Assembly: GCA_003864495.1 (NCBI GenBank)
Contig: ML133502.1
Location: 1,054,001 to 1,118,000 of the forward strand
Source of the DNA: Nemopilema nomurai
Lineage: Eukaryota; Cnidaria; Scyphozoa; Rhizostomeae; Rhizostomatidae
Direction: 5' to 3'
Length of the DNA: 64,000 nt
Below the pieces are notes generated by a model that was not told where the DNA came from, did not search any database, and was given only the letters and a program-made list of their open reading frames with translations. Position 1 is the first letter of the stretch, and the number at the start of each line of letters is the position of its first letter. Shown here piece after piece: positions 2,691-32,681 of the stretch. A program made the translations under genes and the position numbers.

Positions 2691-5600
2691 CTAGAGGTGC
2701 TTGGTGTTCTCATACTTCGGGACAGCATTTCCTATCTCTTCGTACTGGGACTGTAGGCCCGCGTAAGTTGCATCGGCATTGGTACCTTGGCCTTGAAGGT
2801 CCATGTAATGCCTCTCGGTCGATTCCGCACTCCTAAAGATTGGGACAAGATGAAATCATCAACTTTTAAACTGCTGACTACATGGAAGATAATTCACCAA
2901 AAAATAAGAGAAGGGCGTCTACAAGCGAGGAGACATACAAGAGAGGATTGAAGAAAGATGGAGCAAGATAATTTGGTCCAATGGGTGACCGTGAAATAGA
3001 CAATATGATGCTTACTTTTTACTTCCATCGACTTGAGCTAGAAAAAGAATTGGAAAATTTCAGTATTTTTGTTCTATGAAAATGAATCAGAAAAGCTTTA
3101 GGAGAAAAGAAACACTTTCACATGGGTAAAGATGGGTACCTTCTGGTTTCCCGTTTCTTCCTCTTACTCTTATCAAGTATATCAGCATTGCTGCCAACGC
3201 AATGAGCAAGACAGCAACAACAACTGACAACGCAGTGATAATGGCGCTTTTATTTGCAACGTCATTTCCTGCAAAGACATCAGAAAGCGTCAGTTTCAGA
3301 AAGAACGTTGTCAAAGCAATTATTTTCGCAAATCCTTCCTTACCCAAAAGTTCTTTACAAAATAACATGAAAACTTTGCTAAAACATGAACAAAGGGGAA
3401 CGAAAGATTTCTCGCATTCAAAAGGATATGTAGGTTCAAATATTTAAAATATTTAAAATGTCCAACAAAGTTAGAGTTCTGTTAAGTTAAGCGAAATGCT
3501 TGCCTCTCTTTCTTACACAATCGGGTGGTTTAGACTTAACTGTCATGTCTGTCTTCCTTGTTAGTGTTCTCGTCTGTGGTGTTTTCGAAAAAAACTGTGT
3601 ACTTTCTCCCTTTGTAGTTTTCGAGGTGGTAGTTGGTGGCAGTGTTGTTGGAATGGGGGTTTCTGAGACTTTCGAAGTGAAGACCTTGGTAGTACTCTTG
3701 AAGCTCATCGTCATTTCCACATCGGTGATGTTCACATTTCCTGGAATCTTGCACTTTTTCATTGCATCAATATTGTATCCCATTTCAGTATAAACAACGG
3801 ACCCTGACGCATTCTTCAACTTTACTTCATATTTCACGTAGCAAGACCCTGATTCCGCCTTTTCCCATTTGACTTCGACACAATTGTCTGTCCATATTTT
3901 TTTTGCTTGCAATTTCGGGTCAGTATCAAGCTTTACTGTCAAATAATTCATTACATAATAAGTAACAATCCTCAATAACTTTAACATCAATTTTGGTTAT
4001 TGCAGTGGTGGTGCATTTCATTTCAAGATGATATAGAGGCTGGATTCCCCATAAGAGTAAGGTATTCCAAGTTTAATCGTCTTTCCAATTACACAAAATA
4101 ATTTGCTCTACTATGTATTAATATATATGAAACATGGAAATTCACTTACATAAAACAGTGACATAGGTGTCCTTAGCCAGCGATGTTCCTACACTGTTCT
4201 TCACTGTGGTCTTCAAAACCCTTCCACAATAACTTGCAACCATGTTTCGTTGTGTGAATTTTGCTGAATAAACATACGGATGAATCTGGCTTCCTGCGAC
4301 TGTTGTTGCGGCTGCACCAGAATGAGGCCAAACAAAATCAGCTGATGCTGCAGGGTTTCCGTCCATCTGAATGGCAATTTCTAAATTTGAGTTTTCATTC
4401 ACTTCGATGCTTGCTGGAGGCGAGACCAGGAACTGTGGAATCCCTAGTTGGAAAATTGAAAAAGCGTTTGGCAGCAGAGCTCCTTAGCAAATAATTTAAA
4501 AAAACATAGAAAATTGAAAATACTTGTCTTTTTGAATGACAGGAAGGAGCCTATGCACTTCCATACCCTAGTGATTGCTTCACTTCACTTTCATCAAGCC
4601 GCTCGGTTTTCATGTATATTCCTTTAAAAAAGCTTCACCAGAACATTGCTTGCAGAATATCAGGTCCTGTCTTTTTCTTCTGTGCTAAAGGTCATTGGCA
4701 ACCAAGAAAAAAGTTCAAAGAAGAAGGCGTGAAATTGCGTAATCTTACCGATGACTGTGATGCGGACAACTGGCTTCAAGTTGAATTGAACAGGAAAGCG
4801 AGATGGTCCAACAATAACATCGAAGTTAACGTAAGATGCAAACTGGTAGGCCGAGTCGTTGTACTTCAAGCCATTTATCACCAGCGTGCTGTTGGATGCT
4901 ATCACTTGAAGCCTCCCAGTGAACGGTGCTGGAATGGATGGCTCCAGCTGAAGAGCGCCATTTGGCCCAATCCTCTTTGCGACTGTCTGCAGTGCTGCGT
5001 TGGACAAACTATTGAATCCAATAATCTGCTCTTTGTATTCCTTACTTCCTGAGTCATCACCAATGTAATCATATCCCCACGTCAACCATACTGATGAACG
5101 TCTTGCTGCTGTCACGTGACTTGGTGATGACTTTGTTTCATTAGCAAAAATATCTCCTTTTTTAATAGCAGAAACTACAAGGAAAGTACAAAATAAGGTC
5201 AAAAGGCAATTTTCTAAACAATTGACAGCGAGTGTTCAAATGAAATGAGGAGTATGCGGATTAAACAATGGACTCCAAAAGCAACAGCAGAATGCTCCTG
5301 GCCCCTGGGGAAATAACTTGAATTGAGAGATAAAGTCAAAAATGTATTGCGGCTAAAATGTGCAATTAGAGAAATTTTTTGGAAATTGAAGGGTCACATT
5401 AGGACCTTTTGCCGATAGGTTTCAACAAAACACTTCCTTTTGCGCGATACAGGGTCTCCCTTTTTATGCTCCACTTACGTTAATCTTTGTAAATGGCAAA
5501 ATTAGTTTCATACGTATTCTGTTTGTCATAAATCTATTGTTGATTATGCAATATTTACTCGACCTAAACCTCATTTTTCATACAAACTTACTGTAGTGAT

Positions 5601-6740
5601 TCATACTTTTTAATAGCACGTGACCAACGATGGAACAGTTTGATTTCAGTACGCCACTTTTCACGTGAGACACCACGTGACGCAGTTCGAAACAGGGAAA
5701 GGAGGCCCTCATCCATTTGACTGAACAAATAATAAGGTTTGTCGAATGCCTGTCTCAGGCAAAAAGGCAGCGTTGAACTGTGACGGAAGGGATGGGGACA
5801 GTGGGTTCTTAAGTAAGTTATCTTTTCGAAGCATTGGGAAAGAAATAAAATGACGTTTATAGGTAGAAAGAAGGAGGTCGAATATTCTGCAATACAATTG
5901 GATGGGTTGTGAGAGGATTTCATAAAATGCCACGTGTAAGAAACATTTCTTGACTCTATTGTGCCCCTCACTTTCAGGTGCACCTCGCAGGCCCTGGGTA
6001 AATGGTGTAAAATTCAACTTCCAAACAGAGCAAAGTTTATGCGCTCCTAGCCTGTTCTTTAAAAGGGATCACTCTTTTTCGAAATTCTGCACTTTTTATA
6101 GAGTTTAAAAACAAGATGCATGCATCAGAAGTATATGAATTCTGTGAAACAAACTGCTTGGTTTCTTAATTTGGAACTAACCCTATATAAAAGGCAAGCG
6201 CACATTGTCAGAAAATTAGAGAAAATGGTGCAAAGACCTATCAAACTGCTACTTGTTTAATTCAATCAATTCTTTAATTTCGTTTACGATTGACAAAAGA
6301 CAAAATATGTTGGTTGGGGCAGTTTCTCTTTGTTTGAATGCTAAGTTTCACAATTGAATGCTCCATGCAACATTTCCATTCACTCACTTCTCTAAATTCA
6401 CTATGTCGTGGCTACATTACATCACGTGTTTTAGCAATTTTGGTCAATATTTGTTTTTCTTCTCATTAGAACCTTAAAATGACTGTAGCTCCCATGGCTT
6501 CATAGTAGTTTGATGACCAAAATTCGCATGTCCACTAACCGCATGCCTAGAGATTCATCGTCGTAGATTCAAGTTTCAATTGTTGTCTTTGTTTCTTGTT
6601 TTAACTTCTAATGGTAATGAGGGGTTGAGACACTGTCTTGCAGGGTAAAATTGCCATGTAAATAAAATACCTGATGATAAAAGTGAAGCAATCCAGAAAC
6701 TCCAAAACATTGTGAACTTTGCATGAAATCGTAACTCCAT
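2691..6740 (-). CDS. Gene A: Alr-like immunoglobulin-superfamily receptor with ITAM-like tail
   Basis: Probable cell-surface recognition receptor of 471 aa. Coding exons in transcript order: 6740-6671 signal peptide (starts MELRFHAK), 5174-4749 V-set-like domain, 4443-4150 I-set-like domain, 3935-3603 FN3-like domain plus Thr/Pro stalk, 3268-3140 membrane span (residues about 383-406), 3037-3016 micro-exon, 2832-2691 tail. Extracellular exons all join in phase 1. The V-like domain has the core Trp and a DSAYQF motif but no cysteine. The I-like domain has only the later cysteine. The tail carries Y434-MDL, ten residues, D445-AT-Y448-AGL, then Y455-EEI, which is ITAM-like. Odd: the donor after the FN3 exon is GAAA|GTACAC, and reading through it stops at 3487, which would give a secreted form. 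The Alr resemblance is from memory of family architecture. Ligand and function are inferred. Confidence 0.85.
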
Positions 6741-7816
6741 CTCACGAAGTTTTCAACCCTAAAATGGGAAAACAAAGATCTTACACACGAATTGGCCAAT
6801 AAATGGAATCATAAAACAACCCTCTGATATATATTAATCTGCGAAGATTCAGATGTAAGTTTATATACCTAAAGATAAAATTAACCATTGCTCTACCATC
6901 GAATGAAATATGATACAGAGGTTAAAAGGTCAAGTTACCAACAGATAAAATAATGTCAATATTTTCGGTTTACTGTTATTCCAGACAAGCAGTTAAATCG
7001 TACCAATAGAAATGTAGAGAAAACAAAAAACTGTTACCGAACTAGAGACAGGTGATTCTTCCTGTGAAATTCTAAAACGTTAGAAATGAAAGAAAACTTC
7101 AAAATGCCCCAACATGTTTGGTTTTGTGTCCAAATACATATTGAGTGTGTACAAGGAATTGATGTCTATAATATTCCACGAGAATTCGATACATCAATGC
7201 AAAGACCAAGATTTGTAGCTGAAGCTTTTGACTGCCGCACTTCGCTTTGTCTCTGCCTTCAGCGACTTTAGCTACCCCCGTCCGTGACCATCAACTAGGG
7301 TGATAGTGATGATTATTCTCATTATTATTATTATTGTATTGTGGAGGACATGACTCCGAATTTTTGGCACGTATTTTGCTCCACATTTGATAGCAGTATT
7401 TATTTCTTACTAGCAGCGCGTCTGTTGCCCAAAAACGTACAGAATACTAACTTCCTCAGGCATGTAAACATGAGCCAATCGGCCTAAATTTTAAAAACAG
7501 TTGTTTCTCGCTCGACAAAAGATTAGCTAAAGGACTTTCTTTACACTTACAATGTGTATCAAAAGTGGGCAATTTGCGGTCAGCCATATAGTGATTGAGA
7601 CATTATGTTTATAAGACCTTTTATTTATGCGGAAGACGGCAAATAGAAAAAGTTTCCGTACCTTTTCAAGGTGCAAGTCAAGAAGGAAGTAGAATAGCAA
7701 TGACAACAGCAACAACAAACATCAGTTGAGTATGGGAGGAAACATTAGAATTCATGAGCGGCATTGTTCTTCAGGGAAAGAAATCACATGCTTGATTACC
7801 CGTCGCATGGTTGTAT

Positions 7817-8003
7817 AAGCTTTTCTTTCCAATTCTTTAAACTAATTTTAATAACGATTTGATCGGACATATACAAATTTACCAAATCAAATACAAATTC
7901 GCCGCATCAAATGCAAAAAAACAATTTTCAGTCCCAAGATACGAAATAATTTTCGGAGGACACAAACGAAACGGTAACAACATAAATTGTCCATCGCATG
8001 GTT
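7817..8003. repeat. Insertion specific to copy 2, flanked by a short duplicated sequence
   Basis: Copy 1 has the sequence CGTCGCATGGTTG once, near 605. Copy 2 has it at about 7801 and, slightly altered, at about 7992, with some 190 bases between. The intervening AT-rich sequence is absent from copy 1. Either a small mobile element inserted with target duplication or a local duplication occurred. Boundaries are approximate. Confidence 0.5.
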
Positions 8004-10082
8004 GCAGCAACTTTTTTCTTTGCGCGGACATTATTCAGTTTGTTGGGACACTTCCGAGTTCGTCAATTTGATCACGGAAGAGTTCTTACTCAAGCACTTG
8101 TTATTCGTTTCCAATCTAATAAAAGTTTCGAAACAAGATAAGCAATTGTTATGCCGTCTTTGAGTTATTAGTTTGAGAGGCTGGACAAAGGGAACAATGG
8201 AGACAGTAAATGAAAGTACCAGCTTATTGTGCGATAAAGGCAGTAAAAAAAGGGACAACATTTCTCAAGATTCAACTCTATTATTACAAGTCAAATTGTT
8301 TAAAAAATTTCACTTTTGGGATCGTTAGCTCTGCATAATCAGTTCTCTTTTTTAAAAATCAAAATTGGTGGTATTTGAGGCCGGGTGCAAATGAAGGAAC
8401 TTCAACTAAAGCTGAACAAAGGACTTTATGTCGTTGAAAAATAAGGGGACTTCCAACTTTTGAAACTCAGCACTAAAACTTGCAGCTTTTATAATGTTAT
8501 GATAGGGTGATAATGAAGGCCCTTGGAACTCTGTTTGTTCGTGCTTAGAGCGGTATCCGAGAACCTAACATCCATTCTCGATACGAAAATCTTTTCTTGA
8601 ATAAGAATATCCAGAAAAGATAAAGGTCCACATGATATTGATATTAAACTCAAAATTATGATTTTTTTACTCAAAGTATATCAAACAATGATGTTACTTA
8701 TATCGACCCTGGCCTTGCTTTCCTTCCAGAAAACGTTTCAAGTTTTCTCATTTGTTGTTCTTTGAGTTTGATTACATTGCATTAATATGTCAGGAGCAGT
8801 AATAGTTGATACCTTGTAAATTATGCACGATTAATGTTTCGACATTCAAAGTTTCAACAAGTGCCTAGCACTTTGATTTTATTGGGTCGCAACACAATTA
8901 AAAATTTTGTAATGAATTTGTTTGCAAATGACCTACAATCTTATCCCCTGCATTCAAAAATCTTCCTCGCAAATCTCATCTTTCTAAACAAAGCATGAGC
9001 GCAGATTGAAGGGGGGAATGAGGGTTGATATTTTTGTATTTAGGGCAACATGATTCGTATCTAAAGAGGCCGTAACATGTTTGAGGCCGACTGGCCAAGA
9101 AAATTATTTTGTATCTATTGTCTCGACTAGCTATAACATGGAACCATTCATATTACTACATATTTTAATATCATATGTCAATGTTTAATATTAGCTATGA
9201 AAACTGAGCATAAAACAATGAAAACGCAAGTAAATGAAAACGCAAGTAAATCAAAAACGCAAAAGAACAGAAATATATCTTCTCTATCAACTTCTGATAG
9301 TCAATTGAATTGCTCCCATTAAAAGGGGGGGGGGATGGCCGTTTTAAACAAAAATTGCATTATCTATTCCTAAAATAAACGCTCTAAGGTGATTTTCGGA
9401 GAAATGCATATAAGCCAAATGCATAGGTTCTCCGTGGAATTTTCGCAATAGAAATGTCATTTTATAACTTTGTACCTTAGGTACCAGACTCATTATCATG
9501 TAAAATAGTTTTTTGATACATAGTGGGTCTGGTACCTTGAGTAATAATCTTGCAATTTATTTACAATTCTTTCTTGCCATACTGTCTATGCAATCATTTA
9601 TTTTTCAGTGTTGATTTCGTTTAGTAGACTTTGAAATCATAACTTAATTTTCTTCGAATGATTTCGTCCTGTCTTAACTGTGTCTTAACTTGAATGACAA
9701 TTTTTATTCTTGCACCATCTTATAAAACATTAATAAGTTGGATGACAACACTCTTTTATTGAAATTTTTCATATTAACAAAAGCTCCTTGCATTGTAACA
9801 ATACTCAATTGGAAGTAAAAGTAAGAATATATTTTCTGCAATTCTCAGGGTTCAGGGTAACTCCCATACTGCAATAGAAGAATTTTCTTCTTTTTCATTT
9901 GAAGCAGTTTCTTTGATTCTACTCTCCTTAGAAAGCGCAGCTCTAAATTGCAAAGCCAGTCTATGCAACAATAGAGTGGATTGTTGATGCATTCCTTCTG
10001 TCAGCATCGCCCATTAGATCATCTTCTTGATCAGAAACCTGAATCAAAGGTGGATCAGATTCACTTCAGTTAGTTCCAGGCC

Positions 10083-13000
10083 CTAGAGATGCTTGGTGTT
10101 CTCGTACTTGGGGGCTGCATTTCCTATCTCTTCGTATTGAGACTGCAGGCCCGCGTAAGTTGCATCGGCATTGGTACCTTGGCCTTGAAGGTCCATGTAA
10201 TGCCTCTCGGTCGATTCCGCACTCCTAGGGATTGGGACAAAATGAAATCGTCAACTTTTAAACTGCTGCCTACATGGAAAACAATTCACAAAAGAATGAG
10301 AGAAGGGCGTCTGCGAACAAAGAGCCATGCACGAGAAGCTCGAAGAGAGTTGGACCAAGATGGTTTGGTCTAAGGGGTGACCGTGAAATAGACAATGTGA
10401 TGCTTACCTTTTACTTCCATCGACTTGGGCTAGAAGAAGAATTGTAAAATTTCAATATTTTTGTTCTATGAAAATGCTTTAGAGAAAAGAAACACCATAA
10501 GATGGGTAAAGATGGGCACCTTGTAATTTCCCGTTTCTTCCTCTTATTCTTATTAAGTATATCAGCATTGCTGCCAACGCAAGGAGCAAGACAGCAACAA
10601 CAACTGACAACGCAGTGATAATGGCGCTTTTATCTGCAACGTCATTTCCTGCAAAGACAGCAGAAAGCATCAGTTTCCGAAAGAACTTGGCAGTACGATG
10701 CTCTAGCAGTGAGAATACAAACGCGCTGTAGAGATGTTTATATAAACTTGGAAACACTTAATCTGTGACGTTGTGCAGAAATCAATAGCCCATGTAAGGA
10801 GAAATCCACTTTCGACATGAAAGAATTCACATGATACAGGACTCCTTTCCAGATAAAGCTTTAAAAGCAAAGCGGTATCACTAAAAATAAACTGAAGGCC
10901 TTTCCGCTATGTAAAATTTGACACTAAGGAAATCCGGTATCTTGTGACGGACGCCTAAAACTGTGAACAAACGATCTATAGAGTTTGCAGTTGAGGAACT
11001 GGTACTAACGTATAAAAATTGAATTTGAATTATATGAATTTTTTAGATTTCCTTCACAAAAATAATAAACATGAAGAACTTTATAGTTCGAACAGCATGA
11101 ATAAAGAATCATGAAAGAAAAATCAGCTTACCTTTAGTTGTTTTAGTTTTCGAGGTGGTAGTTGGTGGCAGTGTTGTTGGAATGGGGGTTTCTGAGACTT
11201 TCGAACTGAAGACCTTGGTAGTACTCTTGAAGCTCATCGTCATTTCCACATCGGTGATGTTCACATTTCCAGCAATCTTGCACTTCTTCATCGCATCAAT
11301 ATTGTATCCCGTTTCAGTATAAACAACGGACCCTGACGCATTCTTCAACTTTACTTCATATTTCACGTAGCAAGACCCTGATTCCGCCTTTTCCCATTTG
11401 ACTTCGACACAATTGTCTGTCCATATTTTTCTTGCTTGCAATTCCGGGTCAGTATCAAGCTTTACTGTCAAATAATTCATTACATAATAAGTAACAATTC
11501 TCAATAACTTTAACATCAATTTTGGTTATTGCAGTGGTGGTGCATTTCATTTCAAGATGATATAGAGGCTGGATTCCCCATAAGAGTAAGGTATTCCAAG
11601 TTTAATCGTCTTTCCAATTACACAAAATAATTCGCTCTACTATGTCTCAATATATGTGAAACATGGAAATTCACTTACATAAAACAGTGACATAGGTGTC
11701 CTTAGCCAGCGACGATCCAACACTGTTCTTCACTGTGGTCTTCAAAACCCTTCCACAATAACTTGCGACCATGTTTCGTTGTGTGAATTTTGATGAATAA
11801 ACATACGGATGAATAAATATCTGGCTTCCTGCGACTGTTGTTGCGGCTGCACCAGAATGAGGCCAAACAAAATCAGCTGATGCTGCAGGGTTTCCGTCCA
11901 TCTGAATGGTAATTTCCAAATTTGAGTTTTCATTCACTTCAATGCTTGCTGGAGGCGAGACCAAGAACTGTGGAACTCCTGATTAGAAAATTGAAAAAGC
12001 GTTTGGCAGCAGAGCTCTTTAGTAAATAATTAAAAAAAACATAGAAAATTGAAAATACTTGTCTTTTTGAATGACAGGAAGGAGCCTATGCACTTCCATA
12101 CCCTAGTGATTGCTTCACTTCACTTTCATAAAGCCGCTCGGTTTTTATGTATATTCCTTTAAAAAAGCTACACCAGAACATTGCTTGCAGAATATCAGCT
12201 CCTGTCTTTTTCTTCTGTGCTAAAGGTCACTGGCAACCAAGAAAAAAGTTCAAAGAAGAAAGCGTGAAATTGTGTAATCTTACCAATGACTGTGATGCGG
12301 ACAACTGGCTTGAGATCGAATCGAGCGATAATGCGAGTTGATCCAATAATAGCTTCCATGTTAACATAAGATGCAAACTGGTAGGCCGAGTCACTGTACT
12401 TCAAGCCATTTATCACCAGCGTGCTGTTGGATGCTAATACTTGAAGCCTCCCAGTGAACGGTGCTGGAATAGATGGCTCCAGCTGAAGAGCGCCATTTGG
12501 CCCAATCCTCTTTGCGACTGTCTGCAGTGCTGCGTTGGACAAACTATTGAATGCAATGATCTGCTCTTTGTATTCCCTAACTCCTGGGTCATCACCAATG
12601 TAATCATATCCCCACGTCAACCATACTGATGAGCCTCTTGTTGCTGTCACGTGACTTGGTGATGACTTTGTTTCATTAGCAATAAGATGTCCTTTTTTAA
12701 TAGCAGAAACTGCAATGAAATTTTAAAATCAAATTGATATCTTCCCTACAATAGAATAAGGCAGCATAAGAGGAGGAAGGTCATATTAGGACGCCCATTT
12801 CACTAAAAGACATAAGAGGCATTACCATCTGTCATGTTTGAGAATCGACTGACAAAAATGCGCATACGTTTCATCTTTTTTATCAATTAAATTTTGACAA
12901 CAAGAACTAGCACGTCCTATAGGTATAATCACCAATATTGATATAAAAAACACATTATAAAAGGTTTGAATAATTTGTTTGATGACATATTGCAGCACAA

Positions 13001-14206
13001 GCCAGGACAGGGTAAGATAACGATGTATTTCAAAGCAAAGACAGGGAACTATAGATTGACAACCATTGGGTGTGCGCCGTCAAATTCTTCTTTACCTACA
13101 TGTCCATCTTTAGGGTGCAAATGAGACAATACTATTCAAAAGATCGAATGAGAATGGCAGCCTGAGATTTTTGCCAAATGGCTTGCTTGAAACAGCTTCT
13201 TACTATGAGCTCCATTTTTAATTCTTACTTGTTAAGACCTACTTTCCTAACGGGTGTTGCAACTGTGAAACAATATTTCTTTTCATTTGTTTATCTTCTA
13301 TTATCTGTTTATCTCCAGCTATTAGCTCCAAACGGGGGACTACCCTTCGATTGTTTGAAAAAGGTGAAATTATTTTGCAAATGCAGCACTCTTTGAATGA
13401 AGGTCATAGGCTAATGACAGGTCTTGGTATATGAATTCCTAAAAACCTGAAACTAGTCATTTGATTGTTAGGTAGAACAGACTGAAACGAGAAAATGTAC
13501 TGGACAAGGCAGTTTTTAAATAATCGTTTTACCAGCATTTGTAGTTACAATTCTATTGGGTCATGTGACTTACCGTAAGTTCTCGAATTGGCCCCCTTCC
13601 TCGAAAAAGCCCCTCTCGCGAATAAGCCCCCGCCCTAGAACTACAAAAAACTACATTTCGTTGCCTGAGGTTGCCTTTGGCATTTTAGTGAAATACCACA
13701 AAAATTCATATTTTTGTTAGTAATTCCCCCTCGAATTATCCCCCTCGAATAAGCCCCCATCCAAAAATATCAAAAATAAATAACCCCTCAGGGGGCTAAT
13801 TCGAGGATTTACGGCATACAGGCTACCAATAGAATTGAAAGACAGAAATTGAAGGAACGTTTTTTCATGCGTATTACGTCAGATCGTTGTTGTACTGAAG
13901 TTAAAGACGCTAATAGACCTGGTGTCATTTATGTTATTAAGGCTTCCAAATTATCGTAGCCTTACAAAGATTTATTACAATTAACTTTTAACTTCCTAAG
14001 CAAGGACTTTGTCGTATTCTCAAATTTTGTTTCCAATAAACAAATACAATTACAACTTTTCGAAGTAACACTGAATTACATCTATGCATTCCTATTTCTT
14101 GTTTTTACTAAGAGCTGCATTGATGCCAAGTTTTACCTGATGATGGAATGGAAGAGAGCCACAGAGTCCAAAACAGAATGTCAAGCGCATGACATTCTAA
14201 CTCCAT
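10083..14206 (-). CDS. Gene B: Alr-like immunoglobulin-superfamily receptor with ITAM-like tail
   Basis: Tandem paralogue of gene A, 473 aa and complete. Coding exons: 14206-14137 signal peptide (starts MELECHAL, hydrophobic core then SS|V), 12709-12284 V-set-like, 11978-11679 I-set-like (two residues longer than in A), 11464-11132 FN3-like and stalk, 10648-10520 membrane span, 10429-10408 micro-exon, 10224-10083 tail. All splice sites are GT-AG and phases agree with gene A. The tail keeps the tyrosine set YMDL, YAGL and YEEI, with one change before the last KYENT. Compared with A and C, the end of the V-like domain (12284 to about 12370) differs in a cluster of residues while the rest is almost the same. 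Likely an activating-type surface receptor; ligand unknown. Confidence 0.87.
10826..10960. mobile_element. Small inverted-repeat element (MITE) in gene B intron
   Basis: The element ends carry a GATACCGGA-type inverted repeat followed by bases resembling TGTGACGG. It lies in the intron between FN3 and membrane exons. A related copy sits at the same intron position in gene C (22001-22204), so the insertion predates the B/C split. Gene A lacks it. Confidence 0.5.
12710..14136. other. First intron of gene B, with a MITE
   Basis: This is intron sequence between the signal-peptide and V-like exons. It holds the inverted-repeat element at 13571-13817. Its 3' part is not similar to the matching introns of A and C, which resemble each other. 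Confidence 0.6.
13571..13817. mobile_element. MITE with CTCGAATTNGCCCCC inverted ends
   Basis: The left end reads CCGTAAGTTCTCGAATTGG followed by a C-run. The right end, reverse complemented, reads GCCGTAAATCCTCGAATTA followed by the same C-run. Internal copies of CCTCGAATAAGCCCCC occur. No coding capacity. The target duplication is not clear, so the superfamily is unassigned. Confidence 0.65.
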
Positions 14207-14484
14207 GGCAGGACAATTTTGATCTCTGAAATAAAAAGTTAAAAAGATTACTCACTTACTGGCTGGAAGCCTTTAATAAAACGACCACATATTACACACA
14301 CTGGTGATTACACACAACTGTTTTTAAAATTCCTGTCGATATGTTTTGATCTATGAGTAATTCAAATGTAAATTGTATTCAAAGATGAAGCACACCTTTG
14401 TTCTATCACTGAATGGGAGATTAGCAAACTGAAAAAACGATCTTATGTTACTGAGGATAAAAATAACAGTTTACCCATTCAAAG

Positions 14485-14600
14485 ACTTGATGCTTGCAGT
14501 TATAAAAAATTTTCAAATCGAAAAGTTCTTAGTGATTTCGTTTTTATTAGTATAATTTCTTTAAATATTTCGGCCTACTACATGTAGGTTCCTTGGCTTT
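14485..14600. repeat. Dispersed repeat, intact copy
   Basis: The sequence from GATGCTTGCAGTTATAAAA to CTACATGTAGGTTCC recurs at 27557-28066. There it is split by a LINE 3' end, so this copy shows the uninterrupted state. Confidence 0.7.
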
Positions 14601-14749
14601 TAAAAAACCTTGTAGTCCTTGTGTTGCGTGGACTATCGCCGGCACTAAAGAAACCTGAACAGCAAGCATCCATTTCTTCCTTCAGATCGAATGACAGTAT
14701 TCGAACTAGGCTAGGGGCACTTCCCATTCCTTGACTTGCAAAACGCAAA

Positions 14750-15010
14750 CTTCTTCAAGCTTGAACGTCAATCGGCCTAACATTGTGACAACAGTTACTG
14801 ATTGCGTAAAGAAAAATTGACTGATAAACTTTCGTTACACTCTATGTAAAACGTTTATGTTTATCGAAAAGAATTAAATTCAAATGTTTGCTATACAATG
14901 ATTTAGACAAATCTTTTATTGAGATTTAATGACGTAGATAGAGAAAACATTTCCATACCTTTACAAGCTGCATTTCAAGAAGAAGGAAGTACAATGGCAC
15001 AACAACAGCA
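14750..15010. repeat. Diverged third copy of the array's upstream block
   Basis: This block shows the same order of landmarks as 270-570 and 7460-7715: CAATCGGCCTAA, a GTTTATG stretch, a CATTTCCATACCTTT or similar, then GAAGGAAGTA and a CAACAGCA-rich run. It lies about 0.6 kb upstream of gene B, as the 7.2-7.7 kb copy lies upstream of gene A. It is much more diverged than the other two. Confidence 0.5.
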
Positions 15011-15361
15011 GCATTACAGCAACAACAACATATTGATCGGAAGTGACATAAAATTCGAATTTACAAGCAGTGATATACATATGGTGACGAAGAACACAAT
15101 CTTTATTATTGTTATTACTATCATTTCCATTTTATTATTATTACATTTATTTGCTAATGAAGGTCAGTTGACTGTTTAGTGTAACAATTAGCAGTAATAT
15201 ATAGCAAAGCAAAACTTAAAATGTATTTTGGTAGGACTTAAATGTCAAGGAGTCAAAAGCAAAAAGCAATCACTAGAAATAAAAGTAATCTTAGTGTTTT
15301 TGTCCAAACTGCTGTCTTATTATCATCTGACATTTTCAAGCTTGCATGTTTTCAATCTTTT

Positions 15362-15990
15362 CTAGAAGGTGTCTATTAGTCTGGAAGGTGAGTTTGGTCT
15401 TGGCAGTTCAAAACTGTATAAGGCTTTAGTCTTGATGGTTTTCTTCTTCTTGAAGATATCTTCAATCTCTTTAGGAAAATCTCCACGATAGACTTCGTGC
15501 ATTACTGATGCAGCTTTTCTTTCATAAATGTAACTGAGTGGTTGCCACTTTGCATTTTCAAGAGCATCATCAGTCGAAGACAACACATAAATGAACCATG
15601 CAGTTCGTCTGTGAACAGCTTCCAGCTGCTCAAATTTCGATTTGCTGACAGTTCCCTACACAGCAATGCAGTAATTGACGCCTGCAATCACTGATTTAAA
15701 ATGATTTCATTGATTTCTTCCAAGACTTTTCTTCCCAAGAATCTCACCCTTTTAGCTGACATAATTGTCCATCATATTTTCATTACATAACGACGCTCTT
15801 AATTTGCTTGAATCCCAGCTCAAACCTTGGTCACTTGTAACGCCAAGGCATTTTGCAGATTCCTTCAGATCAATCACTTACTCACCCAAGGTAAGCCTTT
15901 GAATCGTGCGTATGAATCGGGCCATTTAGTAATTGGCATTGCTCCAGTTTTATCAGTGTTGATCGTTAATTTACTTTTAATGCACCATTA
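15362..15990 (-). pseudogene. Non-LTR retrotransposon reverse-transcriptase remnant
   Basis: Conceptual translation of the minus strand, with frame changes, gives the C-terminal landmarks of LINE reverse transcriptases in order: a LTINTDKT segment, a CLGVTSDQGLSWDSSK segment, a FEQLEAVHRRTAWF segment and an IYERKAASVMHEV segment ending near YSFELPRP. Several stops and frameshifts break it. It is a dead fragment between genes B and C. Family resemblance is by eye. Confidence 0.65.
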
Positions 15991-17017
15991 TTTTGTGATC
16001 TGCATCATCTTGTTTTCGCATTCTTTACAAAATTTTACCACTTTTATAATTCTTCCATTCGTTTAATATCCAACAATTTCTATATTATTATTATAGAAAT
16101 GAAAAAGATGTTGCTTTTTTCGTCATCTTCACTTCCATGGCTGCTTATATTTCCGCAAAGCATGAGCAAAACATTTTCAACTGAAGTAAAATGATAGAAC
16201 AACTTGCTGGGAAATGGCAATATTGCTTTCGTGTGATGTGTATTAAAACTAATTAACATATGATTAGCATACGTTTTGAAAAAGGCAGAAATTGGGGCAA
16301 TGCAGGTACTTCTCATTTGTATGGGCCTTAATCTGGTTTTAGCAACATCCAAGATTGGATGTCCTTATTTCTCATTTTTATCGGGGAAGTTTTGCCTATA
16401 ATTTGGATTTAGTTCTGCACTAGAAGTCGGATACCAGCTGCTACTTGCTTCCTCAAATAAATCAAGCAGCGGGTTTTTATCTTAATTCTGAGGGTAAACT
16501 CATTAGTTCAATCTAAGCCCAGGAAGATGAGACTTGGGCCTGAAGGTAGGAGCTACTGCACTCAAAGTAAAAGGGACAGAGTTTCAGCGAAATTAGAAAA
16601 CTTCAAACCGTGATGCAAGAAGTGCAGAAAATCTTACTGATAAGAAAAGATATCGAATTCAGACGTTTGAGATAGATGGAGCAGAATTCATTTGCAGCTC
16701 GTGACGATAGGGGGGCAGCTAGATGATTGTAGCGCAGGCTTCCATTATCGTGACAAGGAAGTGAAGATTGTTTGAGTGACAGCAACAGCAACCACAACAG
16801 CGGTTGAAGGGCGCGGTGGCCGCTGCACTTGAAAGCTTATTTCTTGTCCTTGAATGGGCGAGCCCAGCATACTGTTTGTTGGTCATAAATATATTATTGT
16901 TACCTGTCGTAAAATGTAAGCAGTGGAAAGACTGGTAGTGGATGTAGGTATATCTGACTAAGGAAGTGGCAATCATTTGAGGAACAGACAACAACCTCTA
17001 ACTGAAGTCCCGACAAG

Positions 17018-20000
17018 ATGGCCGGTCTTCGGTTAGGCCTTTCGGGCCCGAGTGGTCGCCAGATGCTAAATGTGCTTCTTGTTTGCTTTGTGTTCATGGA
17101 TGCACGGTTCTTTAAATCAGGTAAAATACATTCTTGATTGTTTGATTTAATTCTTTCATAGTCTAAGAGCAAGTTTTGGTCTCTGAGTCACAATTTGTGA
17201 CTCACAAATGACTACTTTCTTGTGATAGAAACTGAAGAGAAAAGAACTGATCGGGTTTCAGTCTAGACAACCAGAGAAATTTAGGCAAGTTTAGTTTCAT
17301 ATTACAAAATGGCACGAAAAGCCTGAAATATCTTACTACTTATAAGAATGCGGAAAGTGCATTTACATCCCAAAGATTGCCAAAAGTCTAACCCGCGCGC
17401 ATCCGGCTTTCCTTCATCGTTCTGGGCTTATTTTCAAAGTGACCTAAGACGAATATTAGGGTGCTTGCGAACTATGTTGTTATGAAGGGGGCGGTCCTTG
17501 GCTTTTTCTGAATTTCTCAACAGCTGCATCATATCCTAAAGAGTAGTAGTTTATTTTGAAATGGCTACACACCCTCAGATTTTACTGATTCCTATGTCAA
17601 TTTTAACCCAAATGATATTCATTTTGGCATTAGCTACAATAATTTGATGTCCAATATATGAAGATTCTTTACGCAGATTTCTATATTTACACACATTCCT
17701 TCACTTTGACCTAACATTCTTGGTATTTTTTATTTTGGTTGTGAATGGAATATTTTAATTAAGACATGAGAGTGAACTTAGAAATTAATAGTAGAAACAA
17801 CTTAATGTTTTAGAGAAGGCCTTAGTGAATTCACTCTCTTTCATACAATTTTGAATTTAATGGTTAAATAACAATTTGCCCAAGTTTTTCACTGGCCTTA
17901 TGCATGTCACAAGCAAATTTACATAATGTTCAAGTGTGCTAGAATGTGTCCAGCTTGGTAGGATTGTCTGAATTAACTTATGTACAGCATGAATCAATCA
18001 TGCAAAAACCACAGAAATAGATGTGGTTAGAAGAAATTGAGGACAATTAGACGATTGGATAGGCTGTTATTAATTCAAGAAATTTTCAGGTATTGGTAAA
18101 AATATTAGTGAAGCAGGAATGTTTTATTTTTCACTAACAATTTTTTGGGAGCAAAATGACCAGTTTACTGTTTCACAAAAGTTAAGTTGTCTTTCTCCAA
18201 AAGTTTAAACATAGCCACTAGTTGTTTTGGAAATGTGTTTTAGCTCTAAGAGCAGTTGCTTCAATGCTGCTGTATCAACATCAGCTTTTTATTTGAACGT
18301 TATTACACCAAAAAGCTCTTTTTAAATTGAATAGTTCAAATGTTGGAATCATTGTAATGCTTTTGCTTATTGCTTAGGAGAAAAATCAAATAGTTTTACA
18401 GAATGTTGTACTTTGGTTATTCTGCCAAAGTTTGTGATAACTGGAAAGCAATACTAATGTTTAGCAGGAAAGGGTCAGAATGGCAACGCAAATGAAAACA
18501 TCTTGAATTTTTTAAAAAGCACCTGTAAAATGTTAATTTATGTTATTGTTAGTTATTATCAGGCCTTTCATATCCTGAGTATAAGAGGAGTTTCAGGGTG
18601 AGAAAAAAGACCTCAGTAGGAACTAGGACATCAATCTTTATAAGTGAAGTGAGAAAAGTTATTTTAGGAAATAGGAAAATGGAAAGATGAAATAGGAAAA
18701 CCAATGAAGGGAGGGCTGAGAGGGTTCCTCCACATACCATCAAGCACTTAATGGTTTTGAGAGAATTGCCAGGAAACACCATGCCTTGCTTACTTGTTCA
18801 GAAAAACCCACTGGGTGTTTCCTCTGCCACCTGTTATTGATTTTACGAGGTATAAGAATCTTGAGGATATTTAAGTTGTGGGAGGGGAGGGAGAACAACA
18901 ACACAGGAAGTTTGTGTGTTAAGAAGTCCTGGTGTCAAGTGTGTAAGGTCATGTTCAATAGCGATACTTTTAAGCCTAGCACTACAGGTAAAAAATATAA
19001 GATTCGTTTAACTGTGACTCGTCCAATGTTGTATATTTAATTGATTGCAATGTCTGTGGTGTTCAGTATGTAGGTAGCACATGCACGCCTTTTAGGCTTA
19101 GGTTTTATGATTACAAGGCGTGTAGTCGCAAGTTTAATTTAGGGTCTTCAGTCCCTTGAATGGAATTTTTCAGACATTTTTTGAGGAAGGACATCATGGG
19201 TTTCTGAATGACATAAGTGTTAAGGTTATAGATAGGTTAGGAGGTAATGATTGGAGGAGAGAAAGTTTTTGGCAAGTAGACACATAAACACATATTGCTA
19301 TCATTCATCTCTTGAAAGACAGTCAACACCAGCATCTCCATCACATTCTTTTTTCTACCTTTCTATTCACTTCTCTTCCAGTTCCCCATAGCAATTTGTG
19401 TTTTTACATATTTAACAATATGTATTGTATTAGGCAGGTTTCTCTTAGGTTACTATTGTTCTATTGTTATTTAGGTTGAGAGGTAGGCTCCTCTGATTTT
19501 GTAAAGTTGAACTCGCTACACCTTTCCAGTACTCTCTAACTGTAATGTCTCCTGAAAGATTTTCCTTAGGGATCAATATGTCTCGCTCCATCCAATCTGG
19601 AAAGGTTAGCTTGCGGGTCATTGATGGGTGGTGGGTGCCTCCAGAGTAAAAATAGTAATGCAAGTTCATCAGTGGCACGAGCACCATGCCCTATGAACTG
19701 GAAACATTTCGTAAGATACCACAAAGTATGCATTTTTTTGTATTTGTATGTAAATTATAATTTTGGACAATTATTGAAAAAATTGCAGTTTTGAGATTTC
19801 ACTGTCAAGACTGTTCTCTAAATTCAAGGTTGATTTAAAATTTGCATTGTCCAAGATAGAAACAGACATTTGACAGTCAAGACCTTCACTCTGCCAAGTT
19901 TGCTTAGACGATTGCACCAGTCTTTACCCAAGCCTAAAGCAGACTTTGACAGAATCGTTTTTGTAGTACATGACTTCACAATGGCTTGAAATAGCAGCAA

Positions 20001-23000
20001 CATAGATTTTGCATACTTAAAGTAGTACTTTTTCCTCTGAAACTCCTACAAAAATATTGTTTCTGCTATTTCTTCTCATAAAAAATATATTACCCCATGG
20101 GCCAGGAGCAGTTTCCCATTTCTTTCTGCTGTTGTTGAATGCAGAGTTTCATCCGCATACTCCTTATTTCATTTAACATTGGATTTTCATTGCAGCTTCT
20201 GCTATTAAAAAAGGAGATCTTTTTCCAAATGAAACAAAGTCATCGCCAAGTCACGTGACAGCAGCAAGAGGCTCATCAGTATGGTTGACGTGGGGGTATG
20301 ATTACGGTGGTGATGACCCTGGAAGTAAGGAATACAAAGAGCAGATCATTGGATTCAACAGTTCGTCCAACGCAGCACTGCAGACAGTCGCAAAGAGGAT
20401 TGGGCCAAATGGGGCTCTTCAGCTGGAGCCATCTATACCAGCACCGTTCACTGGGAGGCTTCAAGTGATACCATCCAACAGCACGCTGGTGATAAATGGC
20501 TTGGAGTACAACGACTCGGCCTACCAGTTTGCATCTTATGTTAATTTCGACATTATCATTGGACCATCTCGCTTTCCAGTTCAATTCAACTTGAAGCCAG
20601 TTGTCGACATCACAGTCAACGGTAAGATTACTCAATTTCACGCCTTCTTCTTGGAACTTGTTTCTTGCTTGCCAGAAGAAAAAGACAGGAAGCTGATCTC
20701 CTGCAAGCAGTGTTCTGGTGAAGCTTTTTTAAAGGGATGAGGATGATTGTGTCTTAGACAACCGAGCCAGTAATGTAGAGAAGTGAAGTGATCACTTGGG
20801 TATGGAAGTTCATAGGCTCTTTCCTGTCATTCAAAAAGACCAGTTAAAGTGTATACTGCCATAAGGACCACGAAAAATGTTTTCAATTTTCCATGTTTTT
20901 TCCAACTAGGGGTTCCACAGTTTCTGGTCTCGCCTCCAGCAAGCCTTGAAGTGAGTGAAAACTCAAATTTAGAAATTGCCATTCAGATGGACGGAAACCC
21001 TGCAGCATCAGCTGATTTTGTTTGGCCTCATTCTGGTGCAGCCGCAACAACAGTCGCCGGAAGCCAGATTCATCCGTATGTTTATTCAGCAAAATTCACA
21101 CAACGAAACATGGTCGCAAGTTATTGTGGAAGGGTTTTGAAGACCACAGTGAAGAACAGTGTTGGATCGTCGCTGGCCAAGTACACCAATGTCACTGTTT
21201 TACGTAAGTTAATTTCCATGTTTCATATATATTCAGACATGTCGGAGTAAAACAGGGTATTTGTTGTTGGAACGATGATTAAGTTAGGAATATCTTGCTC
21301 TTATGGGGAGTCCAACCTTGTAATCTTTGTTATCATCTTGTATGAGTTGCATCATCCTGCAATAAACATAATTGACGTCAAAACTGTTTAAATAAGTAAG
21401 AATTGGAAAGTACGTAACATCAATGAGAAATAGCAATCTACCATTTGCTTTATGGTGATAAAGGAAAAATTCAATTTTGCAATTAATTCTTTTACAGTGA
21501 AGCTTGATGCAGACCCGAGATTGCAAGCAGGAAAAATATTGACAGACAATTGTGTCGAAGTCAAATGGGAAAAAGCGGAATCAGGGTCTTGCTACGTGAA
21601 ATATGAAGTAAAGTTGAAGAATGCGTCAGGGTTCGTTGTTTATACTGAAACGGGATACAATATTGATGCGATGAAGAAGTGCAAGATTCCAGGAAATGTA
21701 AACATCACCGATGTGGAAATGACGATGAGCTTCAAGAGTACTACCAAGGTCTTCACTTCGAAAGTCTCAGAAACCCCCATTCCAACAACACTGCCACCAA
21801 CTACCACTTCGAAAACTACAACAACTAAAGGTACGCTGATTTTTCTGTCATGATTCTTTACTTATACTTTTCGAACTATAAAGTTCTTCATGTTTATCAT
21901 TTTTGTTAAGGAAATCTAAAAAATTCAAATAATTTAAATTTAATTTTTATACGTTAGTACCAGTTCGTCAACTGCAAGCTGTATAGATCGTTTGTTCACT
22001 GTTTGCGGCTCCCGCCACAAGGTACCGGATTACCTTAGTGTCAAATTATTCATACCGGAAAGGCCTTGAATGCGCTTCCTGTAGTTTTAGCGAAACCACT
22101 TTGATTCTAAAGCTTTATCTGGAATCCTGTGAGCAGGAGAATTCATACCGGATCGGGTCAGGAGTTGGATGCGAAAGGAGTCCGGTATCATGTGAACGGG
22201 GCCTAAATTTCTTTCATGTCGAAAGTGAATTTCTCCTTACAAGGGCTATTGATTTCTGCACAACGTCACAGATATAGTGTTTCCAAGTCTATATAAACAT
22301 CTATATAGTGTGTTTGTATTCTCACTGATAACATACTAATGTTTACAAGAGGAAGTGCTAGAGCATTCAACCGAACTATTTTTAGAAACGACTAGCCCAG
22401 GATCGGCCCAAACAACCCATTCGTTGTCACCCGGCTCCACAGCGTCCTCCCTGAGCAGCGCTCGAGTAGCCAAACCCAAAGGTACATCGATTTATTTTGG
22501 GGAATAGTTGTAGTCAGGCCGCCCCCTTGCGTTTTAACCTCCGCAATTCCTATGCTTCTGTGTCAAAAGGCCTTCAATGTTGAAGTTTAGAAATGACAAC
22601 GTTCAGTTGCTCTTTCTCATATTGTCGGTTTAAAAGTTCTAGCACTTATTTGTTGTCGACAGTTGTAAAAAAGGAGCACGATAAACCTTTCTGTATCATC
22701 TTTCTTCATAAGCTTTGTGAGGTAGTTATCATAGAACAAAAACAAATCGATGTACGAAATGAGGAAAGAGGCAATTAGAAAATTCCGTGAGGATCCAACA
22801 ATATTATTAAGATCCAGGCCACCTTATTATTTTCTTTACGTCTTCGTAACTGCTAGTGAAGCCAAAGCCCTAGAGGTATTCAGCGCACGAATAGAAGTCG
22901 CCAGCTGAACCCCTGAGAATAGACCTAGAGTGAGAAATGCAACTTAGGGAAGTTTCTTGCTAGAAGTCTGTGGATACGTTTTTCGTGTAGAATTAGTATC

Positions 23001-24753
23001 AGTGGCTTTTTAAATACTTTGGTCACAACAGTCAATAGACTTCGACGAAAGAAGTACTCAAGTAGGCCTGTCTCTTTTGAATTTTGGCTTTTGCTTAACT
23101 TTCAGGCCCAGGCACAGGCAAGCAAACTTCCACACCAATTGGCGCCATAATTGGCGGAGCCTTCGGTGGACTGATCCTGTTAATTCTGCTCATAGTTCTC
23201 ATCATATACGTGAAGAAAAGATCGAACAGTGAGTAAAGTCGAATTACTGATGTGTGCTACAAACTGTGTTGAGTTTAATGAAATTTTACTTTCGGAATAC
23301 GTTGCAGTTTCTGTTGAAAAATAGATGTGCATTTGGAACCTATTGGCTTAAAACTGTTACGTCTCGATGCTCCGTTTGCGGACGAACTTTTACTGTCAAA
23401 AATTAGAATCATAGCCTCCCTCGAGGATCTATTTCATCTGACTTTTTGTTTTCAAGACCTTCGTATACTTCAATTGTTAAGAAACTCCAATGATTTTAAG
23501 GAAGGAGTTCTCTCGGGACATGCTGCATTTCAAAGGACCGAGTGTTATTGTAAACTTTATTCTAGATATGAATAAGTTGTTCTTCTCTTTCAGGAAGCGA
23601 AAAGAAAGGTTGCGATTCAGGGTATGTCGTGATTTTCTCTTTTTTAATTGTGGAGATGATTTCTCCAAACCAACGCCAAAAAGGATAAAATTTTATGACC
23701 GCTGGGTCCATGAAGAAGTAGGGAATGTGTTGTAGATTTTCATTCTGTAATTCGTCGCCTAGTCCTTGCTGGTCCTTCTGACCCCTGTGCTTCTTTTGAT
23801 TCATCGCCATATCTGTTGTCCATCGTCCCGCTATTTCTTCACGATGACCAAAGATGTTGCAATGTCCCTTTTTCAGCGAACCTGGCTTCCCACTCCAAGA
23901 TGAGGATGTCCGCTACTCTTCAGTAAGTTTTCGCCTTTCAATAAAAACCTAGCTGCCTGGATACTTTTTGGGCGTCATTTGATTATGTAGATTATTAGAC
24001 CCACTTTTATTTCTATTTTTATGTATACATGCATTCTTTAATGAAATATCTGTATGTTTATATATACATCCATTCACCAAAAAGGCAATTTCCTCTGTTT
24101 TCCTCGTTGTATTGACTTATTACATGTTGTATTATATCAGTCGAAATCTATTATATGTAAACTCTGTTGTATTGATTCTATTGTATTAATTTTTTAAAAG
24201 TATTATTGATTTGAAATTAAAAAGTACTTTAAGAATGCGGAAACTAGTTCCACTATTTCTAGCTATTGTAAAAAGATTTGTTTATATATATACCTTACAT
24301 TTATGAGGAATGATGCCCTGTACATTGTACTTGTGACGAATGTTGACACCTTTGGCTTTCTTTTAGGCTGGAGCTCGCCAGGGCCAAACAGAACCCTATG
24401 AGCCAACGTACGCCGACCCAAAAGGGCCAGTTGTCTACGGGAAGTTAGGTGCCGGCGGTGGAAGGAAAGGGCCCCGGCCGACCAGGCGGGAGGACGAGTC
24501 GAATTACGCCGATGTGAAGGTGGACGAGCAAGGATACCCCGCTGTCGGCGCCATGCCTACGTCTTACACGGACGGCTACGGGCAGAGCAGAGGTGGTTCG
24601 CGGGGGGAGCGAGACAGCGGTAGACGGGTGGCGCCAGACAGGCGAGCGCCGCCGCCTTATAACGACGCCAATTTAGACGACGATGGCTACCCGGTGTCAC
24701 GGCATGCTCCGCCAGTTTATGCCCAGGTAAACAAACCGAAAAAACAGCGATAA
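17018..24753 (+). CDS. Gene C: Alr-like immunoglobulin-superfamily receptor with ITIM-like tail
   Basis: Complete receptor of 611 aa. Coding exons: 17018-17120 signal peptide (a second Met at residue 16 would give a more compact signal), 20196-20621 V-set-like, 20910-21203 I-set-like, 21498-21830 FN3-like and Thr-rich stalk, 22386-22481 extra Ser/Thr stalk, 23106-23228 membrane span (residues about 429-453, followed by KKR), 23594-23621, 23877-23922 and 24367-24753 cytoplasmic tail. Exons outside the tail join in phase 1. The ectodomain is nearly the same as in A and B, but stalk, membrane span and tail are unrelated to theirs. The tail has ITIM-like VVY507GKL and SNY530ADV, a further VY601AQV with Pro at -2, and a PPPY motif. 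The last exon is strikingly GC-rich. The first intron is 3.1 kb and holds a Penelope relic. Likely an inhibitory-type partner of A and B (inference). Confidence 0.88.
18890..19290 (+). pseudogene. Penelope-like element GIY-YIG endonuclease relic in gene C intron 1
   Basis: Broken reading frames give CKxxxC-like SWCQVCKVMF, then TGKKYKIRL, then CNVCGVQYVGST (the GIY-YIG core form QYVGxT), an arginine-containing RLRFYDY stretch and a late RRESFW segment. This order is that of the C-terminal endonuclease of Penelope-like retroelements. Stops and frameshifts show it is dead. It is on the sense strand of gene C. Confidence 0.65.
22001..22204. mobile_element. Small inverted-repeat element (MITE) in gene C intron
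   Basis: The ends show an imperfect inverted repeat: CCCGCCACAAGGTACCGGA on the left and TCCGGTATCATGTGAACGGG on the right. A related copy at 10826-10960 lies in the corresponding intron of gene B. No coding capacity. Confidence 0.55.

Positions 24754-32650: not shown

Positions 32651-32681
<31 letters not shown>

Follow-up and report, generated by a model that had tools for sequence, protein, structure and literature searches.

A 64,000-nucleotide stretch of the genome of the scyphozoan Nemopilema nomurai (GenBank assembly GCA_003864495.1, contig ML133502.1, positions 1,054,001 to 1,118,000 of the forward strand; hereafter the window, C136:1054001-1118000 in our numbering) contains three genes, A, B and C, for putative immunoglobulin superfamily (IgSF) receptors, which probably belong to a cnidarian paired-receptor system whose activating and inhibitory members are kept matched by gene conversion. 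At the sequence level they display the hallmarks of paired receptors, since their predicted ectodomains of V-like, I-like and fibronectin type III (FN3)-like domains are similar, their tails carry opposite motifs, and the similarity appears to have been kept by conversion or recombination. Paired receptors with opposite tails on gene-converted ectodomains are known from vertebrates; if this reading is correct, the push-pull design and the mechanism keeping the match evolved in a further, non-vertebrate receptor family as well. In the papers accessible to the literature search, no gene pair with homogenised ectodomains was seen for a cnidarian. The paired-receptor logic had been proposed in an initial annotation of this DNA, and is here supported and strengthened by tail orthology across genera, by ectodomains that group by species and by genes of the Syk and SHP-2 types.

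The tails of A and B contain a sequence resembling an immunoreceptor tyrosine-based activation motif (ITAM; YMDL, 10 residues, YAGL), followed 3 residues later by YEEI, and that of C contains two sequences resembling immunoreceptor tyrosine-based inhibitory motifs (ITIMs), all of which were recovered as previously annotated, within open spliced models. Opposite tails on near-identical ectodomains were likewise confirmed by alignment: C and B are identical at 307 of 345 ectodomain positions (89%), but at 7 of 27 in the transmembrane segment (26%) and 17 of 63 in the tail (27%). The window lies on a 2.44-Mb contig of a 212.9-Mb genome (226 contigs), and a whole-genome exon-by-exon search enlarged the set of three receptors, each of which proved real, to an array of eight genes, seven activating and one inhibitory, plus one diverged ninth gene, D. 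Eight sets of V, I and FN3-like exons lie at 1016-1076 kb of contig C136, and the seven ITAM tails and the one ITIM tail of the array are all located on this contig. Copies g1 to g5, to the left of the window, are encoded on the minus strand together with A and B, with C on the plus strand at the array end. The proposed head-to-head orientation applies to B and C; A and B are arranged in tandem. Six of the seven ITAM genes have an open reading frame, g4 carrying an in-frame TGA within its FN3-like exon, and the array V exons are 82-92% identical to that of A.

The closest named relatives of these receptors are eight Rhopilema esculentum proteins (55-69% identity in a protein search); the EukProt sequences P0001 and P0004 were grouped with Rhopilema, given that a 330-residue stretch of P0009 is letter-identical in P0001 and that P0001 and P0004 have neighbouring gene numbers. 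Rhopilema holds a C-type gene (P0008) plus ITAM-type genes. C and P0008 share 261 of 345 ectodomain residues (76%), 26 of 29 in the transmembrane segment (90%) and 132 of 156 in the tail (85%), and the tail and membrane segment of C appear to be orthologous to those of this Rhopilema ITIM gene. P0008 and the ITAM protein P0003 share 288/345 (83%), 2/23 (9%) and 18/65 (28%), respectively, and the corresponding values for B and P0003, both of the ITAM type, are 250/345, 17/27 and 37/60. An ectodomain tree of 18 sequences (8 own, 8 Rhopilema-type and 2 from JGI), which leaves out P0001 (a merged model), P0010 (without V domain) and gene D, groups by species, placing C in its own group beside g5 (97/96) and P0008 in the Rhopilema group beside P0009 (93/93). 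Forcing C and P0008 together was rejected (log-likelihood difference 210, approximately unbiased (AU) test p 0.001), as was forcing the four ITIM ectodomains into one clade at a cost of 215 log-likelihood units (p 1e-44). Since the tails are orthologous and the ectodomains group by species, both tail types seem to predate the genus split, with the ectodomains homogenised within each genus. The initial annotation had placed an exchange in the intron after the FN3 exon, and the DNA shared by B and C does end about 20 bp before the C linker exon. A tail swapped only once is rejected by tail orthology and the ectodomain tree in both genera, and the AU test and tree instead favour repeated homogenisation of ectodomains between two old tail types.

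The shared block of B and C has a sharp 5' edge at the V exon. Across this exon, C and g5 exhibit 91-98% DNA identity in four 100-bp intervals; the last full V interval reaches 98%, and in the next, mostly intronic interval g5 drops to 56% while A, B, g1 and g3 match C at 86-90%. Past the FN3-like exon, at 21800-22300, C is 80-93% identical to B and 39-54% identical, or without a match, to the other copies. A run test, whose p-values assume random site order and may be inflated by the contrast between exons and introns, identified a tract of consecutive polymorphic sites identical in C and g5 (Table 1) with p 0.0005, the minimum possible with 2000 permutations (0.014 corrected for 28 pairs), and 7 of the 28 pairs pass correction. 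V codons 91-132 of C and g5 differ by one synonymous and one non-synonymous change; codons 31-60 differ by six and four. The V-I intron of g4 holds a 407-bp piece (C136:1043243-1042868) with 80% identity to the transmembrane-exon region of C (positions 22794-23195 of the window), which is probably a relic of such exchanges. A single sharp-edged block shared with B could also be explained by recent common descent only: one duplication with tail exchange would have given C its ectodomain, with neither conversion continuing afterwards nor any functional pairing. This explanation appears improbable, as Rhopilema repeats the situation with its own, differing ectodomain sequence joined to an orthologous tail, and as the block in C is a mosaic with parts nearest to different copies, e.g. 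g5, g1 and B.

Within the ectodomain, the family profile aligns to V domains of lambda light chains, covering the D strand through the FG loop, with a best E value of 1.6e-5 that sums two weak stretches (0.23 and 0.43) of one chain, the next chain reaching 0.033. The I-like and FN3-like labels derive from weak Pfam matches below the cut-off (Ig_3, I-set, Ig_ILCR1 and fn3). In this family the canonical F-strand cysteine position corresponds to YQFAS, and the following 19 residues, which we define as the loop, occupy the FG position, like complementarity-determining region 3 (CDR3), according to the light-chain alignment. The loop is variable at 14 of 19 residues among the eight copies, compared with 29 of the 121 other V-exon residues (hypergeometric 4e-5). 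The loop of C is identical to that of g5 at 18/19 residues, A at 17/19, g3 at 12/19, B at 9/19, g2 at 8/19, and g1 and g4 at 7/19. The suggestion that one ligand is read by antagonistic receptors is thus consistent, judged by the loop, with C, g5 and A, and does not extend to B; the candidate rule that C is closest to its neighbour B holds for the intron after the FN3-like exon and fails for the loop. In Rhopilema, the loops of P0008 and P0009 are identical at 17 of 18 residues. The uncorrected proportion of synonymous differences (pS) is 0.40 in the loop block versus 0.10 in the preceding codons. Because non-synonymous differences are raised too and the ratio of non-synonymous to synonymous rates (dN/dS; averaged over non-independent pairs) is 0.50, the loop looks like an exchange of old variants. 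The loops of C and A differ by 5 synonymous and 2 non-synonymous changes, those of C and B by 5 and 14.

Mean dN/dS over the eight genes (Nei-Gojobori, averaged across every pair, the pairs being non-independent) is 0.51 for the V, 0.40 for the I and 0.23 for the FN3-like exon, and positive selection on the V domain or the loop was rejected on the values for the V exon and the loop. Among the seven ITAM genes, mean dN/dS is 0.57 in the membrane exon and 0.05 in the tail exon (dS 0.20), which indicates strong purifying selection on the ITAM tails. The ITAM is present with a spacing of 10 residues in all seven of these copies and in six of six Rhopilema-type proteins tested, a check that omits P0001, which has no tail, and two proteins whose tail is out of frame, P0007 and P0009. 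Both ITIM positions match the consensus in three of three other ITIM-type proteins, namely P0008 and the JGI proteins P0011 and P0012, whose C-type tails contain LIYGRL or LIYGKL plus SDYADV; the ITIM tyrosines lie 23 residues apart in C and P0008, with a spacing of 22 in P0011 and P0012. ITIM spacings in the low twenties suit tandem-SH2 phosphatases, as in PECAM-1 and SIRP. By chance, the ITAM pattern (YxxL/I-x(6-12)-YxxL/I) appeared in 0.9% of 20000 shuffles of the A tail exon and in 3.3% of shuffles of the gene D tail, and the shuffled C tail contained at least two ITIM patterns (S/I/V/L-x-Y-x-x-I/V/L, of which ITIM receptors usually have two) in 0.7% and at least one in 12.9% of cases; conservation of the motifs is better evidence than these shuffle statistics. 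Known adaptor and sorting motifs include YxxL/I/V (sorting), Grb2-type YxN, YxxP and PPxY. The C tail has 11 tyrosines, including YADP, PPPY and YAQV sites besides the ITIMs, and the ITAM tails terminate in YENT (YENP in g4), which would suit ordinary adhesion molecules with tyrosine motifs acting as endocytic or adaptor sites and not as antagonistic immune signals. We consider this improbable in view of the spacing of 22-23 residues in all four ITIM-type proteins examined, the retention of the ITAM in seven of seven array copies and in the diverged gene D, and the Syk-type and SHP-2-type genes in the genome.

The genome contains at least 49 SH2 matches. Two SH2 exons at C89:799-806 kb have SYK as their best match (1.5e-46), ahead of ZAP-70 (1.2e-40); downstream of them lies a tyrosine-kinase exon recognised by motif only (HRDLAARN, DFG). 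Furthermore, SH2 exons at C24:2476-2496 kb lie beside protein tyrosine phosphatase (PTP) exons, one of these SH2 exons being best matched by SHP-2 (2.6e-25). Genes of the Syk and SHP-2 types are thus present. In the proposed mechanism, the seven ITAM genes of the array (six of them open) would encode V-like, I-like and FN3-like receptors with an ITAM in their own tail, and C would combine the same ectodomain with a pair of ITIMs whose spacing suits a tandem-SH2 phosphatase. If both forms met one ligand, a Syk-type kinase would be recruited by the ITAM forms and an SHP-2-type phosphatase by the ITIM form, and the balance of kinase and phosphatase would set the response. Germ-line conversion from the ITAM array would, in every lineage, repeatedly overwrite the ITIM gene's V-I-FN3 cassette and keep the C ectodomain in step with part of the array (g5 and A), so that inhibitor and activators would retain one recognition surface, above all the CDR3-like loop. 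Within this scheme we infer that the genes are expressed, that the tails are phosphorylated and bind SH2 domains, that the two forms share a ligand but give opposite outputs, and in which direction conversion ran. More tentatively, a non-bilaterian might independently run a complete paired-receptor system, in which conversion within each species copies the CDR3-like loop of chosen activators onto a single inhibitor, as a germ-line renewal of matched specificity.

Several points weigh against matched, paired signalling. The spacing of 10 residues in the array ITAMs exceeds the textbook 6-8, and the tested PTP exon at C24 is slightly closer to receptor PTPs (9.8e-13) than to SHP-2 (2.6e-11). B, the head-to-head neighbour of C, has a different loop, and the loop dN/dS, as counted here, does not point to positive selection. 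The C-type gene of Rhopilema is on a different contig from the ITAM cluster, and P0009, the loop partner of P0008, lacks an in-frame ITAM in the retrieved isoform. The likeness of the C and P0008 leaders (15/34) is weak evidence, because the P0008 leader also agrees at 7/18 with that of the ITAM protein P0003. Finally, the tree alone cannot give the direction of conversion, and transfer from the array to C is suggested by the position of C inside the array group.

ITIM and ITAM members of the CEACAM family are alike in their ligand-binding exon through conversion or recombination that barely enters the flanking introns (PMC2832619). The jellyfish genes resemble mammalian CEACAM1 (ITIM) and CEACAM3-like (ITAM-like) receptors in their V-like ligand-binding domain (binding here being predicted), in an activating motif within the receptor's own tail, and in V-exon similarity apparently kept by conversion or recombination alongside differing tail exons. 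Unlike CEACAMs, they belong to another phylum with no sequence link seen, their ectodomain combines V, I and FN3-like domains, their two types also have different membrane exons and leaders, and one inhibitory gene stands beside seven activating ones. If pathogens exploited inhibition through C, the ITAM copies could be activating decoys that copy the C ectodomain, as argued for CEACAM1 and CEACAM3. This ligand variant, which is compatible with pairing, would agree with the ratio of seven to one and with the end of the C-g5 likeness at the V exon, which resembles the CEACAM pattern (PMC2832619), but dN/dS values below 1 in the V exon and the loop argue against it, and we regard it as rather unlikely.

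A further comparison is offered by the Alr genes of the cnidarian Hydractinia, clustered IgSF genes with V-set and I-set domains (PMC12065747, PMC11999971, PMC11067881, PMC13119343); some candidate Alr genes reportedly carry ITAM and ITIM motifs (PMC12065747), Alr proteins show low overall identity (PMC11067881), and a 2026 preprint mentions Alr homology across cnidarians as unpublished work in preparation (PMC13119343). The jellyfish array shares with Alr its cnidarian origin, clustered IgSF genes, V-like and I-like domains and ITAM/ITIM motifs, and differs in that its members are near-identical. By analogy, the array could be a jellyfish allorecognition complex mediating homophilic self-recognition, as proposed for Hydractinia Alr, with C as an inhibitory self receptor. 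This second ligand variant, likewise compatible with pairing, is favoured by the V-like and I-like ectodomain, the clustered paralogues and the tail motifs as reviewed for Alr (PMC12065747), by the variable block at the CDR3-like position and by the homology mentioned in the preprint. Conversely, no Hydractinia protein occurred among the 11 matches in each of two ectodomain searches of 5.8 billion proteins, in which only the 8000 top word-sharing candidates were scored and distant kin may be missed, and array diversity is low, as is evident from the V exons. Moreover, to our knowledge scyphozoan medusae form no fusing colonies, and self-recognition of this kind seems unlikely. A self ligand, as for Alr, and a microbial one, as for CEACAM, are about equally likely.

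Among other invertebrates, Botryllus fester co-receptor (FcoR) loci are described in a review as carrying ITIM, hemITAM or core tyrosine motifs; in two oligomorphic loci, the allele or the splicing can decide whether the motif is an ITIM or a hemITAM. FcoRs, which consist of V, sushi and two C2 domains, are suggested to have members of the fester family as partners (PMC12065747). Like FcoRs, the jellyfish proteins are invertebrate V-type Ig receptors with activating and inhibitory forms, but they are encoded by separate genes with fixed tails, homogenised ectodomains and another domain architecture. SIRP, KIR and PIR receptors also combine shared ectodomains with opposite tails, and their activating forms mostly signal via DAP12 or FcR gamma adaptors. 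The jellyfish receptors agree with them in the shared ectodomains with opposite tails and differ in carrying the ITAM in the receptor itself.

The spliced models of A (minus strand, 2691-6740) and B (minus strand, 10083-14206) each comprise seven exons, open from ATG to stop and encoding 504 and 473 amino acids, respectively, in the order leader, V-like, I-like, FN3-like, transmembrane, 22-nt micro-exon and tail, with a longer linker in A. Gene C (plus strand, 17018-24753) has nine exons, likewise open from ATG to stop (623 amino acids), in the order leader, V-like, I-like, FN3-like, linker, transmembrane, two short tail exons and one long tail exon; its start at 17018 with its own leader exon corrects the initial annotation. 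Leader and membrane segments of all models were assigned by eye. All introns of A, B and C are of the GT-AG type, with the sole exception of a GC-AG intron in A (GAGAG/GCAAGC, the slash marking the splice site). This GC-AG donor after the FN3-like exon is apparently used by A and g1-g5; in B and C the intron begins earlier and is of the GT-AG type. An alternative donor for the FN3-like exon of A, GATT/GTGTAAG, was rejected as it gives a stop; with the GC-AG donor, found in six copies, the reading frame is preserved. A GT donor, GAAA/GTACAC, is also in phase in A (read by eye), which leaves its linker length uncertain. The junctions of the small exons of C are supported by Rhopilema P0008, which shows similar products across them. 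In the genome, the C membrane exon matched itself and four weak stretches elsewhere (E 0.005 to 0.06), which we took for chance. The g4 gene also carries a partial second V exon at 1044328-1044399, outside the window. In Rhopilema, P0006 is a predicted isoform without a transmembrane segment and P0009 apparently reads its tail exons in another frame; alternative splicing may yield such soluble or signal-dead forms.

Table 1. Features of the receptor genes (positions are those of the window, except for gene D)
Feature	Position	Strand	Basis or remark
A exon 1, start codon and leader MELRFHAKFTMFWSFWIASLLSS	6671..6740	minus	spliced model
A exon 2, V-like domain	4749..5174	minus	spliced model; profile of relatives resembles lambda light-chain V
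A variable block after YQFAS (FG/CDR3-like position), YVNFDVIVGPSRFPVQFNL	4777..4833	minus	light-chain alignment
A exon 3, I-like domain	4150..4443	minus	spliced model; weak Pfam Ig_3/I-set matches in family
A exon 4, FN3-like domain and linker, GC-AG donor	3504..3935	minus	spliced model
A exon 5, transmembrane	3140..3268	minus	spliced model
A exon 6, 22-nt micro-exon	3016..3037	minus	spliced model
A exon 7, tail	2691..2832	minus	spliced model
A ITAM YMDL-x10-YAGL	2754..2807	minus	motif
B exon 1, leader	14137..14206	minus	spliced model
B exon 2, V-like domain	12284..12709	minus	spliced model
B CDR3-like block	12312..12368	minus	loop comparison
B exon 3, I-like domain	11679..11978	minus	spliced model
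B exon 4, FN3-like domain	11132..11464	minus	spliced model
B exon 5, transmembrane	10520..10648	minus	spliced model
B exon 6, 22-nt micro-exon	10408..10429	minus	spliced model
B exon 7, tail	10083..10224	minus	spliced model
B ITAM YMDL-x10-YAGL	10146..10199	minus	motif
C exon 1, leader	17018..17120	plus	spliced model; 5/23 aligned residues like B
C exon 2, V-like domain	20196..20621	plus	spliced model
C CDR3-like block	20537..20593	plus	loop comparison
C exon 3, I-like domain	20910..21203	plus	spliced model
C exon 4, FN3-like domain	21498..21830	plus	spliced model
C exon 5, linker	22350..22481	plus	spliced model
C exon 6, transmembrane	23106..23228	plus	spliced model
C exon 7	23594..23621	plus	spliced model; product partly conserved in P0008
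C exon 8	23877..23922	plus	spliced model; product conserved in P0008
C exon 9, long tail	24367..24753	plus	spliced model; one match in genome
C ITIM 1 VVYGKL	24430..24447	plus	motif
C ITIM 2 SNYADV	24499..24516	plus	motif
DNA block shared with gene B, 2.1 kb	20185..22330 (pieces 20185-21382, 21474-22330)	plus	V acceptor to about 20 bp before C linker exon
Tract of 29 consecutive polymorphic sites identical in C and g5	20467..20577	plus	run test
Gene D, diverged ninth member	C136:1377098-1385100 (1377-1385 kb)		about 300 kb from array, outside window

Gene D is 33-42% identical to the array in the V exon and 29-32% in the I exon. Its tail, HYMDLKGCSEQATYASL, lies beside its V and I exons and contains an ITAM with a spacing of 8 residues (YMDL-x8-YASL), as well as additional YENY and YENT motifs; a long low-complexity repeat separates the V and I exons. 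Searches with the V and I exons of D retrieved D, all eight copies of the array and, on another contig, a single weak I-like stretch (E 0.03). Genome-wide fn3 matches, for which 150 of 495 candidates were scored, gave no route to the receptor family.

Elsewhere in the window, a DEAD-box helicase gene is encoded on the minus strand at 30296-34146 (Pfam DEAD and Helicase_C exons), and a minus-strand exon at 45948-46313 matches the 49-kDa NADH dehydrogenase subunit (Complex1_49kDa). An inverted repeat at 25989-26439, with 178-bp arms of 99% identity and mirrored open frames on both strands, is perhaps a small transposable element. Immediately downstream of gene C, a short tandem repeat with the unit CCTCGAGTAGATAG occupies 25112-25185.

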